A stretch of 64,000 nt of DNA from Candidatus Bathyarchaeota archaeon. Lineage in GTDB: Archaea > Thermoproteota > Bathyarchaeia > 40CM-2-53-6 > DTDX01. The stretch spans positions 1 to 64,000 of the forward strand of contig JAGTRF010000001.1 in the NCBI GenBank assembly GCA_018396775.1. Reading direction: 5' to 3'. Of the stretch, positions 1 through 8,635 are shown one piece after another (the first letter of the stretch is position 1; every line of letters begins with the position of its first letter). A program made the position numbers and the translations under genes. The notes under the pieces were generated by a model. That model did no database searches and had not been told where the DNA came from. It saw only the letters and a program-made list of their open reading frames with translations.

Positions 1-285
1 GAAGCTCCAATGTTTTAAAACATTCATTTTAAGCTCTGGAAAAACTAAAACACCTGGTATAACAGTTATACCTAAAAAGTGGAAAGCTATAAACACTATG
101 CCTATAAAGGTTAATAAGCCTGCTAAACCTTTCTCGCTTAATAAAGCTTCAATCCATTCTCTAGCCTTCAAATAGTTTTTAATGCTTAACGCTAAAGCTA
201 AAATTATTTGCGCTACTCCAAAGAATATAGCTATTTTAATAAGCCAAACAACATTACTAGGTGTTTTAACCCAGCCTGGGATAAC
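1..285 (-). CDS. atpI: A-type ATP synthase subunit I, C-terminal fragment (frame-shifted, cut by window edge)
   Basis: This is an open frame of 95 codons that runs off the window at base 1. It has no start of its own: a TAG (288-286) lies directly before its first codon. It begins VIPGWVKT and continues with hydrophobic segments of the kind that follow the FG-rich loop in the membrane domain of archaeal subunit I (the a-subunit homologue that carries ions past the c-ring). It lies one frame away from the end of the upstream piece (266-1507), so the two are read here as halves of one broken gene. The true C-terminus is outside the window. Confidence 0.7.
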
Positions 286-1507
286 CTAAACCTATCATAA
301 GCTTCCCTAATTTAGCAAAATTTAAACCCATAACATTGCGTTTTAAAACAAAACCAAACAATAAACCTAAACCTAAAATAATTAAGCCTTGTCCAAAATC
401 AGGAAACATAACACCAAACATTGTAATCCAAAGAATAGTGCCAATAATTGTTGGATCGCTTTCCTCATGGCTTGGGTAACCATATTGTTTAGTTAAAACT
501 TCGTAAACCTTAAAAAGCTTAGGATTCTCCATAACAGTAGGTACATCTTCACCAGGTAGGGGGTCGTCATAAACATAAAAAACGCTACCACCAACCCTTT
601 TATTAAAACCATCTAAATAAACGTTTAAACCATCAATTTTATTAACTGGAACCCAACCCTGTAAAACACTCATCAACCTACTCCTCAACAAATAACCCTC
701 AGCTAAACAAACATCCAAACCATGCTTAACAACAGAAATTAAATATCCAACTTTTTCCTCGAACTCTTGTCTAAGAGGATTCCATTCTTCTTCAAGAAGC
801 TTTAATTCTTCTTTAAGCTTTTTCGCTTCTTCATCAACCCATTTTATAGCTTCTTCCGCTTCATTCGGGATTCCTGAAGGAAGCTTAAATTCTTTAAATT
901 CTACGCCAACTAAAAGTTTTTCAATCCAACCTTTTAACTCTATTAACCCAGTTATATATAGGAAGGTTTCTTCTGGTGAGATGGCGGCTTCTCTAAAGGT
1001 TATTTCCTTTCGAGGTTTAAGCCTTAACCTAAGTGATGGTAAAAGCTTAGTTTTAGCTACTCCAGCTTTCGCAAAAATATGTTTAAATTCACCTATACTT
1101 CCAGGGTTTATTTTTTGATTTTTTAAGATTTGAAGCATAGGTGTTGCTTCGTTAAGAGTTTTTAACTTCTCCTTAACTGATTTAATTTTTTCTTCTAATT
1201 TAATTGTTTTCTCTTCAAATTCTTTAATAGAATTTTTCAGTTTATCTATTGGAGTTCTAACTTTGCTAAAGTCTAAAGATTCAACTTTTCTTGGAGTTGC
1301 ATTTAATTTAGCTTGAAGCGCATGAAGCTTTTCATATAAGCTTTCATATTCTTTAGCTTCCTCTGAAACTATTTCTTTAAATCCTATAAACTCGCTTTCA
1401 TCAAGCTTCTTTAATTGAATAACTCCTAATCGACCTAAAACCTCTATAAGAGGGCGTTCATTATCTATTAAGGTTATGGCAGTGAATTTTTTTACAGGCA
1501 CAATCAT
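266..1507 (-). CDS. atpI: A-type ATP synthase subunit I, N-terminal part (gene frameshifted)
   Basis: Subunit I joins the peripheral stalk to the membrane sector of the archaeal ATP synthase. The 413 residues show the long N-terminal cytoplasmic domain with coiled coils (about residues 50-120 and 225-255). The membrane domain then starts with a segment ending MFPDFGQG (around residue 373), a family hallmark. The frame stops at YPRLG, just where the family normally has a conserved glycine-rich stretch of roughly 15-20 residues leading into the next helix. The continuation sits in another frame (1-285). The start is ATG at 1507, giving MIVPVKKF, typical of the family. It follows the nuoM-like gene with a 43-base gap on the same strand. 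Confidence 0.88.
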   Translation of the reverse strand: MIVPVKKFTAITLIDNERPLIEVLGRLGVIQLKKLDESEFIGFKEIVSEEAKEYESLYEKLHALQAKLNATPRKVESLDFSKVRTPIDKLKNSIKEFEEKTIKLEEKIKSVKEKLKTLNEATPMLQILKNQKINPGSIGEFKHIFAKAGVAKTKLLPSLRLRLKPRKEITFREAAISPEETFLYITGLIELKGWIEKLLVGVEFKEFKLPSGIPNEAEEAIKWVDEEAKKLKEELKLLEEEWNPLRQEFEEKVGYLISVVKHGLDVCLAEGYLLRSRLMSVLQGWVPVNKIDGLNVYLDGFNKRVGGSVFYVYDDPLPGEDVPTVMENPKLFKVYEVLTKQYGYPSHEESDPTIIGTILWITMFGVMFPDFGQGLIILGLGLLFGFVLKRNVMGLNFAKLGKLMIGLGYPRLG

Positions 1508-1550: not shown

Positions 1551-3059
1551 TTAAAGTTTGCTAAGTAATCGAGAGAAGATTGCGCCAAGCTCTTTACTGA
1601 TTAAAGTTGGATAAATTCCTAAAATTAAGGAGAATGCTGCAAGAATTATTATTGGAGCTAGCATAGTTAAAGGGGCTTCGCTAGCGATTTTCTGGGTTGA
1701 TTTACGCTCTCCAAAAAAGATTCTTCTAAAAGCTTTTAAGCCATAACCAGCTGTAAAGATAGAGGCTATTACAGCAAGCGCAGTTATTACAACTCTAGTT
1801 AAACCTTCAGATAAAGCATTTATTAAGCTAGAATGCATTGCACCTGCAAAAATGAATAATTCACTCCAAAAACCTAGAAGCGGTGGTGTTCCAGCTAAGC
1901 TTAAAAATGAAATTAAAGCAGCTGTAGCTGTATAAGGCATTTCTTCAGCTAACCCACCTAAATCACTTATTTTTCTAGTGTGAAATTGGTGAATAAAGAT
2001 TCCTGAAATCATGAAGAGAACAGCTTTAGCAAAACCGTGGCTCATATAAAGCAATGCAGCTCCAGTTAAACCTAAAATAGAGGTTGAAGCTACGCCAAAC
2101 AAGAGATAACCCATTTGGCTTATGCTAGAGTACGCAAGCAACCTCTTCACATCTTCTTGAACTAAAGCCATTGAGGCACCGTAGAACATTGTGATTAAAG
2201 CTAAAACTGATGTGATGATGATAAAATTATAATTAAATGCTACTATTGGAAAAGCTGTATAAATTATTCTAATAGCAGCATAACCGCCTATTCCAATCAT
2301 TGCTGGAGAAAGCAAAGCGCTAATTGGTGTTGGAGCCTCAGCATGTGCGTCTGGAAGCCAAGTATGAAGGGGGAAAATAGCCATTTTAACTATAAGCCCC
2401 AATAAGATTAATGCTATAATGATTATTACTATTTGCATCATTTCTGGAGTTATTTTTGAAGCGATTTCAAAGATTTCAAAGGTTCCAAATTGAAAGCGTG
2501 CTATTAAAATTCCAGCTAGCAAAGATAAAGCTCCTGCTTCAGTAAACATAAAATATTTAAATGCTATAGCTTCTTTAGGTCCAGTTCCCCAGACTCCAAT
2601 TAAAGCCCATGAAGGAATAAGCATCAATTCAAAGAATAGAAAGAAAGCTGCTAAATTAGTTGTAAGCACTGTACCAAGCATTCCAACGGTATAAAGCATG
2701 TATAAAGAATAGTAAACTTCAATGTTTTCAGCTTCAGCCATATATCCAATCGAGTATATAGCAATTAAAGCAGATAATAAAGCGATTGTGAAAGCTATTG
2801 GCCCACTTAAACCATCAGCAAGCAGCGTTAAACTCCCTATATATGGAGCCCAAGCATATGAAGCTTTAAGCCCATCTTTAATAAAACCTGTAAATAGATT
2901 TAAGGTTATATAGGCATAAATTCCAGTGCTATAAAGCAGAACTAAAAAAACAATCCATCCTACTCTTTGTTTATAAACTTTCCCTAAGGGAAGAATTATT
3001 GCTGAAAAAACAGCAGGTATAATAAGAGATTGAATAAGCAAATTAAGGGAATCATTCAC
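1551..3059 (-). CDS. NuoM/MrpD-type proton pump subunit, stand-alone
   Basis: This is a 502-residue polytopic membrane protein of the proton-translocating antiporter-like family (complex I NuoL/M/N, Mrp antiporters, membrane hydrogenases). The signature HTWLPDAHAEAPTPISALL lies near residue 235, and buried charged residues such as the Glu in FFELMLIPSW (around 143) are kept. About 14 membrane helices are expected. The start is GTG at 3059 with GGTG eight bases upstream. No other complex I or hydrogenase membrane subunits are present in the window. It sits between atpC/atpK and atpI, so a role in ion pumping alongside the ATP synthase is possible but unproven. The exact subfamily cannot be fixed by eye. 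Confidence 0.85.
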   Translation of the reverse strand: MNDSLNLLIQSLIIPAVFSAIILPLGKVYKQRVGWIVFLVLLYSTGIYAYITLNLFTGFIKDGLKASYAWAPYIGSLTLLADGLSGPIAFTIALLSALIAIYSIGYMAEAENIEVYYSLYMLYTVGMLGTVLTTNLAAFFLFFELMLIPSWALIGVWGTGPKEAIAFKYFMFTEAGALSLLAGILIARFQFGTFEIFEIASKITPEMMQIVIIIIALILLGLIVKMAIFPLHTWLPDAHAEAPTPISALLSPAMIGIGGYAAIRIIYTAFPIVAFNYNFIIITSVLALITMFYGASMALVQEDVKRLLAYSSISQMGYLLFGVASTSILGLTGAALLYMSHGFAKAVLFMISGIFIHQFHTRKISDLGGLAEEMPYTATAALISFLSLAGTPPLLGFWSELFIFAGAMHSSLINALSEGLTRVVITALAVIASIFTAGYGLKAFRRIFFGERKSTQKIASEAPLTMLAPIIILAAFSLILGIYPTLISKELGAIFSRLLSKL

Positions 3060-3562
<503 letters not shown>

Positions 3563-3575
3563 TTGAGGAGCACCA

Positions 3576-3803
3576 TTGCAAAACGAGAAAGAGCAAAATA
3601 AATCGTTAAACATCAAATTAACAATTATCTATTTTTCTATTTTAATTGGAACACAAATTTTTGGAGTTTTTCTTATTTTAAAATTTCTAATATATAAAAC
3701 AATTTTTTTAGCTCTTATCGCAAGTTTAGCTTTAACTTTCATTCTTCCAATAGTTTTAGGCGTATTTTTAATTTTTATAGTAAAATTTAAAAGAAGAATT
3801 TAA
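3576..3803 (+). CDS. Small two-helix membrane protein next to atpK
   Basis: This is a 75-residue protein with a polar N-terminus (MQNEKEQNKS), two hydrophobic helices (about 14-36 and 42-69) and a basic end (KFKRRI). It starts with TTG at 3576, five bases after a GAGGAG ribosome binding site, and lies 13 bases after atpK, so co-transcription is likely. Its tail overlaps the end of atpC by 4 bases on the other strand. I do not recognise a family. Position and topology suggest a helper for c-ring or membrane-sector assembly, which is inference only. Confidence 0.65.
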   Translation: MQNEKEQNKSLNIKLTIIYFSILIGTQIFGVFLILKFLIYKTIFLALIASLALTFILPIVLGVFLIFIVKFKRRI

Positions 3804-4801
3804 ATTATTAAATATGGTTTAACTTCAAGATTTTGTTGCGTTAGAAAAGTTGTTAAAACAAGGTTTCTCCACTCAATCTCACATAAAACAAGATATGAAA
3901 TTACATAAGCAAAGCTTAAGCTTGATTTTAGCATAAGTTCTTCAACTTTTCTTCGAAGAAGCTTTAAAGCATTAACTTCAGCTAAAGCCTCCTCTCCTTT
4001 CTCAATTAAAGGTTTAACTACATTTTCATAGCTTTTAAGAAGCGTTAACGCTGTATGCAAGCTTTTAGATTCCATAACCTCTTTAAAACTAGATAAAGGA
4101 ACTTTAAAGAAGAATGGGATAAGCAGTTGTTTAGTTAATTCAGATGCGTAACCATAAAGGAGGGGGGCTAAAGCTGTAAAGCAATTCGCTGCATCAATTT
4201 CAATTCCTAAAATTTCTTTTATTTCTTCTTGATCCCCGCTTGGAAAAGTTTCTAAAGCTTCAAAAACCATTTGATAATAAGTTTTTTTTAGTTGAACTTC
4301 TAAAGGTAAAATACTATTATACTTTCGATATAAATCTAAGCTTTTAATTATTTGAGAGTAAGCTGTTCCTTTAAGCATTTCAACAATTTTCTCTATGCTT
4401 TCTGCTTCTATTAACCGATTTAAATTTAAGCTTGAGAAATCTTGAATTAAAGGAATAAAAGATTTAATGTCTCTAGAGGTTTTAGCAATTTTGCTTCTTA
4501 AAATTCTAGCTAAGCTTTGAACCTCAAATCTTTTAGCGTAAACTTTTAGAAAATCTTGTGTTTCATCTGAAGAAGCGTTTATTACATGCATGTATCTTTT
4601 TATCAATTCTTCAGTGAAGATTTGCTCTAAGCTGTAAGCATCAACTTCTTTTAATTCCCTTATTTTATCGCCGTAATCTGTTGAAGCTAAAATATCAGCT
4701 ATTTCCTTTATGTTTTTTGATGAAGTTAAAGCTTCTATTGCTTGTTTTGGTAGAAGATGCGTTGCTAATCCATGGCATCTAACAACTAAATATTCAGGCA
4801 T
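3800..4801 (-). CDS. atpC: A-type ATP synthase subunit C (V-type d)
   Basis: Subunit C couples the central stalk to the c-ring. The 333-residue, mostly helical, soluble protein shows the three-fold repeated architecture of the family, with Arg/Tyr-rich motifs such as EWRNLVLTTF near the end. I chose ATG at 4801 (MPEYLVVRCHG), which is preceded by GAGAGGA and overlaps the atpD stop. A TTG at 4819 is in frame but lacks a ribosome binding site. It is the last minus-strand gene of the F-H-E-A-B-D-C run before atpK interrupts. Confidence 0.93.
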   Translation of the reverse strand: MPEYLVVRCHGLATHLLPKQAIEALTSSKNIKEIADILASTDYGDKIRELKEVDAYSLEQIFTEELIKRYMHVINASSDETQDFLKVYAKRFEVQSLARILRSKIAKTSRDIKSFIPLIQDFSSLNLNRLIEAESIEKIVEMLKGTAYSQIIKSLDLYRKYNSILPLEVQLKKTYYQMVFEALETFPSGDQEEIKEILGIEIDAANCFTALAPLLYGYASELTKQLLIPFFFKVPLSSFKEVMESKSLHTALTLLKSYENVVKPLIEKGEEALAEVNALKLLRRKVEELMLKSSLSFAYVISYLVLCEIEWRNLVLTTFLTQQNLEVKPYLII

Positions 4802-5426
4802 AAGCTTTCCTCTCGGCAATTATTGCTCTAACAAATTTTGTTCTAATAAATTCTTCAAGCATATCTTCATCTAATCTATCTTCTATCTGTTTTATAATAA
4901 GCTTATATTGAGGGATAACTATTTTTTCAAGCGCGTTTACTTTCCTATTTGTTTTTTCTAAATCTTCAGCTATTCTTTCTATTCTAGCTTCAAGCTCAGC
5001 AACTTTAAGAAGTTCTTCAATTAAATCGTTAAATTGCTTAGCTGCAAATCTAGCGATTAAACCGAACTTGTTAACTATTGATGGTTTATTTACGATTTTT
5101 AAGTAAGGTACTAAAATTCCCATTACGCTTTTAGGTAAAACTTCAACTTCCAAGTTTTTTTCAACAGCTTCAGATTGAGAAGCCATTTCTTTATAGCCTA
5201 AAAGCGCATATGCTACGCTAAGGTTTTTAAATGCAGTTTCAACTTTTTCTTCAAATAATCTTTTTTTAGCGCTAAGCTCTTCTAGATTTGCTCTAAGCTC
5301 GTTAGCTAACTCATCTCTTTTTAATTCAAGAAGTCTATAACCTTCTTCAATAAAGCTTACTCTTTTTTTAAGTTGAAGAAGGAAGCCTCGTGTAGGTTTA
5401 ACTCCAGCTCCTAAAGTTGCGGGCAT
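4794..5426 (-). CDS. atpD: A-type ATP synthase subunit D
   Basis: This is the central-stalk rotor subunit inside the A3B3 head. The 210 residues begin with PTRGFLLQLKKR, the family hallmark, and consist of two long helices forming a coiled coil (about 12-80 and 130-205). It starts at ATG 5426, 17 bases after atpB, and its last codons overlap the atpC start, which fits translational coupling. Confidence 0.95.
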   Translation of the reverse strand: MPATLGAGVKPTRGFLLQLKKRVSFIEEGYRLLELKRDELANELRANLEELSAKKRLFEEKVETAFKNLSVAYALLGYKEMASQSEAVEKNLEVEVLPKSVMGILVPYLKIVNKPSIVNKFGLIARFAAKQFNDLIEELLKVAELEARIERIAEDLEKTNRKVNALEKIVIPQYKLIIKQIEDRLDEDMLEEFIRTKFVRAIIAERKAYA

Positions 5427-5443
5427 TAAGCTAAACGCTCCAA

Positions 5444-6835
5444 TTAAGCAGCTTTATATTTTGGATGATACTTCTTTATATGCTCCTCTTTAACTCTAAT
5501 CAATTCATCTTCTGGAAGCATTGAAAGCAGATCCCAAGCTATTTCAAGCGTTCTTTCTAAGGGTCTATTCTCGTAAACTCCTTGGTTAACAAATCGTCTT
5601 TCAAATTCTTCTGCGAACCTTAAGTAGTTGCGTTCTCTCTCGCTTAAACCAACTTCTCCAATAATTCTAACTAATCCTCTAGCTTTCACGCCTTCAGCAT
5701 AAGCCATATACAATTGATTTGAAGCACCTAGATGATCTTCTCTTGTTCTCCCTGGGCCTATACCATCTTTCATAAGTCTTGAAAGCGATGGAAGAACATT
5801 TATAGGTGGATATACGCCTCTAAGATATAGATCTTTATCAAGAATTAATTGACCTTCAGTTATATAACCGCTTAAATCTGGAATTGGGTGAGTTATATCG
5901 CCTCCAGGCATGGTTAATATAGGCATTAAAGTAACTGAACCTTTTTTCCCTTTTATTTTCCCAGCTCTTTCATAAATTGTTGCTAAATCAGTATATAAAT
6001 AACCTGGGTAACCTTTTCTAGTTGGGACTTCTTCTCTAGCTACAGATATAGATCTTAAAGCTTCACCATAATTAGTCATATCTGTTAAAATTGTAAGAAC
6101 ATGCATATCAAGATCAAAAGCTAAATATTCAGCTATTGTTTGAGCAATTCTAGGAGCGACAATTCTTTCAATAATTGGGTCATCAGCTAAATTAAGGATC
6201 ATAACAGAATTTTCTAAAGCTCCTGTTTTCTCAAATTCTCTTCTAAAAAACTCGTATTCCTCATGCTTTATACCCATAGCGCAGAAAACTACCGCAAACT
6301 CTTCTTCTTTGCCAGGAATTGTTGCTTGCCTAGCTACTTGAGCTGCAGCAATATTATGGGGTAAACCAGCTTCAGAAAAGAATGGTAGCTTTTGACCTCT
6401 AACAAGAGAATTCATTCCATCTATAGCTGAAATCCCTGTTTGAATAAACTCGCTTGGAGGCTCTCTAGCAGCTGGGTTAATAACTGAACCAAAAATTTCT
6501 CTCCGCTCCTTACCTATGGGTTCAGGTAAATGATCTAAAGGTTTAAAGCTTCCGCTGAAAACTCTTCCTATAAGATCATCTGATAAAGGAATTTTTATAA
6601 CTTCCCCAGTGAATCTAACTGAAGCTTTAAGCTCTAAACCCTCAGTTGCACCGAAAACTTGAACAACAGCTTTATCGCTGAATGTATCTAAAACTGTTCC
6701 AATCATTTCTGAGCCATCAGGAAGCTTTACTTCTACAAGCTCGTTATAAGCAGCTCCTTTAACACCTTCAACACCAAGCAATGGTCCTTTAATCTCAGTT
6801 GTGGATCTATAAATAAGCCCAGCTTTCTCAACCAT
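5444..6835 (-). CDS. atpB: A-type ATP synthase subunit B (regulatory)
   Basis: This non-catalytic subunit alternates with A in the head. The 463 residues show an N-terminal beta barrel, a degenerate P-loop (SEAGLPHN, about 160), and the family signature around [20 protein letters not shown] (about 348). The missing GKT is normal for B. The start ATG 6835 follows an AAGGGGGAAA site. The gap to atpA is 13 bases. Confidence 0.97.
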
Positions 6836-6848
6836 ATTTATTTCCCCC

Positions 6849-8618
6849 TTAAGCTGTAATTAACCCATATTCCTCACTAATCTTTTTAATTTCAGATTGA
6901 GCCTCTATTTTTACTTTATCTATATTTTCAACGCCTTTTCTTTCCTTTAACCGCATAACCTCAACTATTAATGGTAAACCTCTTATCTTTTCTACTGGAA
7001 CACCAGCTCTAACTAATGGCTCAAGCATATCATAAAATTCAATTAAGAATCTAAGCATTTTAGCTTGCTTTTCAGGCTCACAATAAGTATCAACTTCATG
7101 ATAAGCTTGTTGAACTAAAAAGCCTTCTCTTATAATTTCAGAAATAAACAGGATTAAGCGTTGCTCTTCAGGTAAAGCTTTCTCTCCAATAATTCTAGCG
7201 GTTTCCTCTATTTTAGATGCTTCTTCAAGCAGTGATAAAGCTCTATCCCTAAAGTAAAGCCATTCAGGATCATATTTAGACCAGAAATCTTTTAATAAAT
7301 CTGTGTAACGGCTAAAGCTTAAAAGCCAGTTAATAGCTGGGAAGTGCCTTCTAAAAGCTAACTCTGTATCTAAAGCCCAAAGGGTGCCAACGAATCTTAA
7401 AGTTAAAGATGTGACAGGTTCGCTGAAGTCTCCACCAGGAGGAGATACAGCGCCCATAATTGTTACTGAGCCTACTCGTTCTTCGCTACCTAACGTAATT
7501 ACTCTTCCGCTTCTTTCATAAAATTCCGCTATTCTTTCAGCTAAGTAAGCTGGGTAACCGCCTTCAGCTGGAATTTCTTCAAGTCTACCGGAAATATCTC
7601 TAAGCGCTTCAGCCCATCTTGATGTTGAATCAGCCATTATTGCTACATCATAGCCTTGATCTCTATAATATTCAGCTATTGTAAGACCCATATAAATGCT
7701 TGCTTCTCTAGCTGAAACAGGAAGGTTGCTAACATTAGCTATAAAAATAGATCTTTCTATAAGCTTTTTTCCAGTTCTAGGATCTTCAAGCATAGGAAAA
7801 TGAGTTATAACATCAGCCATCTCGTTTCCTCTTTCACCGCAACCTATATAAACTATTATATGCGCATCAGACCATTTAGCTAATTGATGAAGTGTAACTG
7901 TTTTTCCAGTTCCAAATCCCCCAGGAATAGCTGCTGTTCCACCTTTAGCTACAGGGAAAAACGAGTCGACAACTCTTTGTCCAGTAATTAAGGGTTCAAC
8001 AGATGGGAGCCTAGCTTTATAAGGTCTAGGAACTCTTACAGGCCATAATTGCATAAGCTTTACTCCAATTTCTCCTCCTTCAGAAAGCTTTATTAAAGCT
8101 ACATCGTCTTCAACAGTAAATTCCCCTTCCTTAATCTCAGCTATCGTTCCTTTTAATCCGATTGGAACGAGAATTCTATGCTCTATAACGCTTGTTTCTT
8201 GGGTGACGCCTATTATATCTCCTTCAACTACTTTATCGCCTTTCTTAACTTTCGGCGTGAAAAACCATTTCTTTTTTCTATCTAGAGGATTTAACTTTAC
8301 GCCTTTCTTCATGAATGGACCAGTAAGCTGCCACATCGCCATTTCAGAGAACTCTAATCCATCAAATATTCCACCAATTAATCCTGGTCCCAACTCAGCT
8401 GATAAAGGTCTACCAGTTGATACAACTGGTTCTCCAGGTTTAAGACCGCTTGTATCTTCATAGCATTGTAAAGCTACATCTCCACCAAATATTCTTACAA
8501 CTTCTCCAATAAGCTTTAATTCTCCTATATGAACTACGTCACCAATTTTTGCTTCATAAAGGCCTTCAGCCACAACTAAAGAACCATTCACTCGTTTAAC
8601 TTTACCTTTAACACTCAA
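6849..8618 (-). CDS. atpA: A-type ATP synthase catalytic subunit A
   Basis: This catalytic subunit of the head hydrolyses or makes ATP. The 589 residues contain the P-loop GGFGTGKT (near 235), the bulge domain typical of A subunits, and [14 protein letters not shown] with [10 protein letters not shown] further on. I chose the TTG at 8618 ([12 protein letters not shown]), which lies six bases after GAGGTG. An upstream in-frame TTG at 8633 would place that site inside the gene. No intein is present. Confidence 0.97.
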
Positions 8619-8635
8619 ATTTAAACACCTCAAAA

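Follow-up and report, generated by a model that had tools for sequence, protein, structure and literature searches.

The operon copy of atpI, encoding subunit I of an A-type ATP synthase, lies at the start of the window (the whole stretch of 64,000 nucleotides analysed here, from the assembly referred to below as G000). It lacks 74 bp that are present in an intact paralog on another contig of the same genome, and its reading frame is broken at that point. There is about an even chance (a probability of roughly 0.5) that this is a real, strain-level deletion in the operon gene. If it is real, a core bioenergetic subunit would have been caught in the middle of its replacement by a paralog. Even if it is an artefact, the genome holds a pair of candidate isoforms of subunit I for a single archaeal ATP synthase, whose membrane half appears to have been homogenised. 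The deletion itself is modest; the isoform pair, a prokaryotic parallel to the a-subunit isoforms of eukaryotes, is more interesting.

Frame break in the operon copy of subunit I

The sequence-only reading had placed a frameshifted subunit I of the ATP synthase, lacking a conserved segment, in the first 300 positions. The gene assignment is borne out by a Pfam match (V_ATPase_I, 1.3e-18) and by a cluster with genes for A, B, C, D and K. The N-terminal frame (266..1507, minus strand, 413 aa) covers the cytoplasmic half and the first membrane segments, followed by six out-of-frame residues and a stop; read from 1507, it terminates at 266, as had been described, in GKLMIGLGYPRLG*. The continuation one frame over (VIPGWVKTP), which had also been recognised, occupies positions 1..285 of the minus strand, with 95 open codons up to the contig end; it is identical to the paralog on contig C11 (L035) at 84 of 94 residues (89%), and had no match at E<=0.001 when searched alone against Pfam.

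Aligned to this paralog, window positions 2-284 correspond to L035:8277-8559 and window positions 283-640 to L035:8632-8989, with the junction at 283..284 (minus strand) and 2 bp common to both sides. The 74 bp absent from the window copy correspond to 24 2/3 codons within a membrane stretch that is conserved, and about 25 residues, LSAMVFGLLAGEFFLLEVKPLWPGL, are gone. A missing glycine-rich stretch had been anticipated, at a size (15-20 residues) that proved somewhat too small. In the alignment to other AtpI proteins that had been called for, 12 full-length sequences from outside the window were scored; 11 of them carry the stretch, which is 6-7 residues shorter in the six readable distant relatives, and the twelfth (G019) has X there. 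The two atpI copies of the sister genome, G001, end before it. A profile search maps it onto FWTVVWGVIYGEFF of a solved subunit I (chain 5y5x_N), which we take to be a transmembrane helix. The frame of the window copy is thus broken relative to its intact relatives, as in a pseudogene. Programmed frameshifting, or two separately made halves, could in principle restore a working protein from two frames that are both open and conserved, but this is scarcely credible, given that the residues are gone from the DNA itself rather than displaced into the other frame, and that the lost stretch is present in every one of the scored sequences that can be read there.

The short GGTT repeat that had been reported at the junction does not occur at both breakpoints, which in C11 have only AA (TT on the coding strand) in common. 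The left breakpoint is surrounded by a perfect 7-bp inverted repeat (8549-8555 and 8561-8567 of L035), and copies of GATAA are found at L035 positions 8555 and 8628, 73 bp apart and one base off the register of the deletion. An in-frame deletion masked by a one-base error was considered and rejected: the GATAA spacing of 73 bp is likewise out of frame, so a slip between these copies would not give an open frame. Window base 1 is also base 1 of contig C1 (157,298 bp); the junction therefore lies 285 bp from a contig end, a circumstance hidden from the sequence-only reading, and the remaining atpI codons, about 120, are off the contig.

The ATP synthase cluster

The atpI gene is adjoined, in G001 as in the window, by a gene for an antiporter/complex I-type membrane protein (1551..3059, minus strand; Proton_antipo_M, 1.4e-66). 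Further on lie atpK, encoding the rotor ring subunit (3263..3562, plus strand; ATP-synt_C, 3e-16), and atpC (3800..4819, minus strand; vATP-synt_AC39, 3e-49). The next three frames, all on the minus strand, are presumed, the first two from their position, to be atpD (4794..5426, with counterparts in the clusters of G001, G002, G007 and G009), atpB (5444..6835, the second and weaker match of the A search) and atpA, for the catalytic subunit (6849..8633). A single copy each of atpA and atpK was found in the genome. The order of the A, B, D, C and K genes (window 3263-8633) matches that in G001. A hydrophobic 75-aa open reading frame (window 3576-3803, plus strand) lies directly 3' of atpK, and a frame of 70-92 aa adjoins the K gene in G001, G002, G007 and G009 as well. 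Rfam and tRNA scans of the whole window gave no matches.

Two subunit-I genes beside single A and K genes

The genome of the window has one A gene, one K gene and two subunit-I genes, together with a decayed third. The search for a second atpI, which the sequence-only reading had suggested, was successful: the paralog on C11 is intact, at 701 aa (V_ATPase_I, 3.4e-25). Its presence weakens the earlier view that the operon gene should be essential, because the loss of the operon copy would less compellingly be lethal. G001 likewise has one A gene, one K gene and two subunit-I genes, the latter split over contigs. In both genomes, a solo subunit-I gene (C11 of G000, C4 of G001) is divergent from a gene whose product carries PhoU and MazE-type domains (AbrB-PhoU). 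The third atpI of G000 is an N-terminal remnant on C14 (L036:7564-7945) with several stops and without the membrane half; subunit-I copies do, therefore, get lost here. The remnant adjoins an AbrB-PhoU gene of its own, at a locus judged by eye to be syntenic with that on C4/C5 of G001, where the counterpart shows no decay as far as the contig extends. The AbrB-PhoU protein of C14 is 85% identical to that of G001 C4, whereas the C11 protein is only 62-64% identical to both, which points to C11 as a separate older copy or an acquisition.

The proteins of C11 and G001 C4 both carry some 60 extra residues in their cytoplasmic half, an insertion with the motif SVGGPALPYWPRKTI that is absent from the G002, G007, G009 and G025 proteins, the G001 operon copy and the window protein. 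The conserved C-terminal arginines of the membrane half (R624 and R676) occur in the C11 protein and do not vary among five relatives; the corresponding region of the window copy would lie beyond the contig end and in another frame.

Subunit-I paralogs outside the cluster repeatedly adjoin AbrB-PhoU genes, and the two genes are divergent in three of the four loci (L035:7910-11187 on C11 and L036:6382-7945 on C14 of G000; L038:6873-9062 on C4 of G001; L123:1635-9656 on C51 of G025). A regulatory link between AbrB-PhoU and these paralogs is possible on the basis of this arrangement. Near the solo atpI of C11, a tyrosine integrase is encoded in two overlapping frames (L035:6273-7141), one corresponding to a SAM-like N part and the other to a catalytic C part; this is perhaps a broken integrase marking an inserted element.

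Mosaic similarity and probable gene conversion

The similarity between the window copy and its C11 paralog is mosaic. Identical residues number 137 of 262 (52%) in the cytoplasmic half, 60 of 64 in the segment before the deletion and 84 of 94 after it, whereas the corresponding counts against G002 are 132 of 273, 45 of 64 and 62 of 93; the membrane halves of the window and C11 proteins are thus 89-94% identical. At the DNA level, there are 13-15 differences per 40 bp between positions 640 and 561, then 2-8 between 560 and 283, and the tract of raised similarity (1..560, minus strand, its upper edge being approximate) is read here as a gene-conversion tract. Silent differences (counted on codons for identical residues, with Met and Trp excluded) are frequent in the 42 codons that immediately precede the tract (18 of 25, 72%) and much rarer inside the tract itself (18 of 81 and 18 of 79, 22-23%); the contrast is weaker with the cytoplasmic half taken as a whole (52 of 135, 39%). 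Orthologs in G000 and G001 (A, B, D and the antiporter-like gene) have 21-31% silent differences, a range close to that of the tract, so that the proposed exchange in G000 was not recent.

The trees are small (nine sequences for the N half and six for the membrane half). In the N half, the window copy groups with that on G001 C3 (99%), and C11 with that on G001 C4 (100% split). In the membrane half, for which G001 could not be included, the window copy and C11 stand together, apart from G002, G007, G009 and G025 (100%). The flank thus follows orthology and the patch pairs the window copy with C11, the patch of G001 being absent from its assembly. The best account of these patterns would be gene conversion of the membrane half between two stator isoforms. 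Slower evolution of the membrane half contributes to the mosaic similarity; alone, it accounts neither for the step close to position 560 nor for the 111-bp identities in G001 described below. As in known cases of gene conversion (concerted evolution), similarity is patchwise, with a step near window 560 in G000 and one further upstream in G001, where identity starts at least 111 bp before the contig end. What sets the present case apart is that only the membrane half of a single subunit is affected, that the G000 tract is as diverged as the orthologs of the two species, and that identity in the middle of the G001 tract is deduced rather than seen.

In the G001 assembly, the contigs carrying the operon copy (C3) and the solo copy (C4) both end at the base matching window 632, and their last 111 bp are exactly identical. 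The final 38-39 codons of both genes lie on the ends of contigs C1 and C5, again with 111 bp exactly identical, and the approximately 318 codons in between (C11 residues 345-662) were not found anywhere in the assembly. Only 139 of the 262 residues aligned between the cytoplasmic halves of the two copies agree, with Met and Trp left out of the agreeing count. The simplest reading would be a single collapsed repeat of about 1.2 kb, formed by the membrane halves of both genes; their middle would then be identical as well, and the 111-bp overlaps would correspond to the k-mer of the assembler.

Deletion or assembly artefact

Behind the junction, 28 of 93 codons differ from those of C11, 19 silently and 9 with replacement, and 21 of the 31 base differences in the 279 bases compared are at third positions; with these proportions, no relaxed selection is seen there. 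Purifying selection behind the break implies that the frame was selected until very recently, and that the deletion is either very recent or an artefact, rather than part of an old pseudogene. An operon copy that is long dead and replaced by the C11 copy would be consistent with the intact substitute and with the clearly decayed third gene, but is very improbable, since silent codons outnumber replacements 19 to 9, the 95 codons behind the junction contain no stop, and the frame before it is intact and 75% identical to the operon copy of G001.

The earlier choice between an assembly error and real decay or replacement holds. According to the artefact explanation, which has to be taken seriously and may well be correct, operon atpI is intact in the cells; the contig met a gene that has a close double in the genome, in a mixture of strains, and a chimeric or low-coverage path over its last few hundred bases skipped 74 bp. 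The position of the junction, 285 bp from the contig end, and the selection visible behind it are as expected on this account, and the subunit-I genes of G001 likewise break at contig ends, with the exact 111-bp overlaps. The G000 assembly (24 contigs, 1.33 Mb, estimated to be 98.5% complete) has further poor overlaps at its ends: four contig-end pairs (L067/L100, L074/L089, L106/L088 and L064/L066) share 643-1355 bp at 89-92% identity, a sign of a strain mixture that the assembly may not have resolved. One pair aligns over 1355 bp without a gap, and one codon position accounts for 69 of its 121 mismatches; in a second, it accounts for 36 of 51, and both look like strain variation. The C15/C16 and C12/C14 pairs show no codon-position bias among their mismatches. 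In one of the end pairs, a single base is skipped close to where a reading frame begins, 129 bp inside the end of C4 of G000 (frames compared by eye). Raw long-read errors were considered as the source of these overlaps and rejected, given the gapless 1355 bp and the codon bias, which extends to two of the four pairs; the gapless pair also speaks against such errors as the cause of an artefact at the junction. The rest of operon atpI is absent from the 48 contig-end records of G000 (the two of C24 giving no usable result). Nor do the G001 genes located 3' of the operon copy lie at any G000 contig end searched: there was one 32-bp DNA match, with none for six proteins, and the one protein compared with the whole of G000 has a 38-residue match with a stop, inside contig C3.

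Other observations argue against an artefact and for a real deletion. Assembly from k-mers, if it was used for G000, does not by itself make a join on a 2-bp overlap, and the junction has only 2 bp in common; nor is the window end simply a piece of C11, from which it differs at 31 of 279 bases. Among the 72 open reading frames of at least 100 aa in 69 kb of G001 C3, 66 match the window at more than 60% identity, and none of these 66 is split between frames or covered over less than 80% of its length, although this comparison is blind to very short shifted tails and the G001 atpI ends before the junction. A real deletion is further favoured by the absence of the stretch relative to both the paralog and other relatives, by the inverted repeat and near-repeats at the breakpoints, by the intact C11 copy beside single A and K genes, by the matching membrane halves of the window and C11 genes and by the decay of the third copy. 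Against it stand the closeness of the contig end, the existence of a second copy so alike, the mixed strains seen at the ends, the selection behind the junction and the failure to find the remainder of atpI at any contig end. The duplication may underlie both the end of the contig here and the tolerance of a lost copy.

If the deletion is real, the following scheme may be proposed. Operon atpI would be one of two stator 'a' isoforms serving the single A-type ATP synthase, and a very recent deletion of 74 bp, probably originating from a replication slip at the small hairpin, would be present in at least part of the sequenced population. By taking out a membrane stretch and shifting the frame, it would lead to a product without the C-terminal membrane helices and, hence, without ion conduction. 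The loss would be tolerable, because the intact C11 isoform, with its near-identical membrane half, could assemble with the same rotor and head.

Whatever the origin of the break, paralogs such as these can break assemblies at exactly this place, and caution is needed before an atpI that looks 'missing' or 'broken' in such genomes is taken as a loss.

Relation to known systems

The assignment to the A/V-type subunit I family is supported by a profile of five full-length relatives, including C11, for which the matches were 8wci_P, covered from end to end (E 3.8e-43), and 5y5x_N (E 1.3e-26); the window copy departs from the family in lacking about 25 residues, in being frameshifted and in ending at the contig end. 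In yeast, the a-subunit is reported to be the sole V-ATPase subunit with isoforms, and domain swaps assign targeting and disassembly to the cytosolic half and coupling efficiency to the membrane half (PMC7324685). As with yeast Vph1 and Stv1, one enzyme would here have two a-type subunits, with divergence expected mainly in the cytosolic half. Unlike the yeast isoforms, the candidate archaeal pair has near-identical membrane halves and a second gene beside AbrB-PhoU. Neither an archaeal subunit-I isoform pair or duplication nor gene conversion in ATPase a-subunits was found in the open-access literature, among the matches listed. It is tempting, if rather speculative, to envisage a single archaeal ATP synthase with two exchangeable stators, of which the PhoU-linked one, distinguished by the insertion of some 60 residues in its cytoplasmic half, would be switched in under certain conditions (perhaps linked to phosphate); conversion would keep the ion-conducting half matched to the rotor, and the PhoU-linked isoform would be taking over as the operon copy is lost.

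Occurrence in other genomes

Of two scans of the named genome collection, the first, for which the C11 protein was the query, gave no relative and the second gave four; records of the window's own genome, or of one very close to it, may be missing from these results. Searches for the C11 protein (E<=1e-5) and for the A subunit (E<=1e-60) covered 41 genomes, among them four (G004, G019, G021 and G023) with two subunit-I genes but two or more A genes, and, therefore, probably two enzymes. One A gene together with more than one subunit-I gene was found in G000, G001, G025 and possibly G032 (82% complete). In G025, a subunit-I gene has a K-like gene adjoining it and is flanked at either side, at distances of up to about 4 kb, by AbrB-PhoU-like genes, and a cut copy on contig C76 groups with the operon copy of G009 (99%). 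This arrangement suggests that a PhoU-linked second isoform may extend beyond this genus. In G018, G020, G022, G026 and G027, the A subunit gave a two-piece match, split near query residue 247, in frames of 1136-1178 aa. Inteins are common at the A-subunit gene, and the split in these five genomes is probably an intein.
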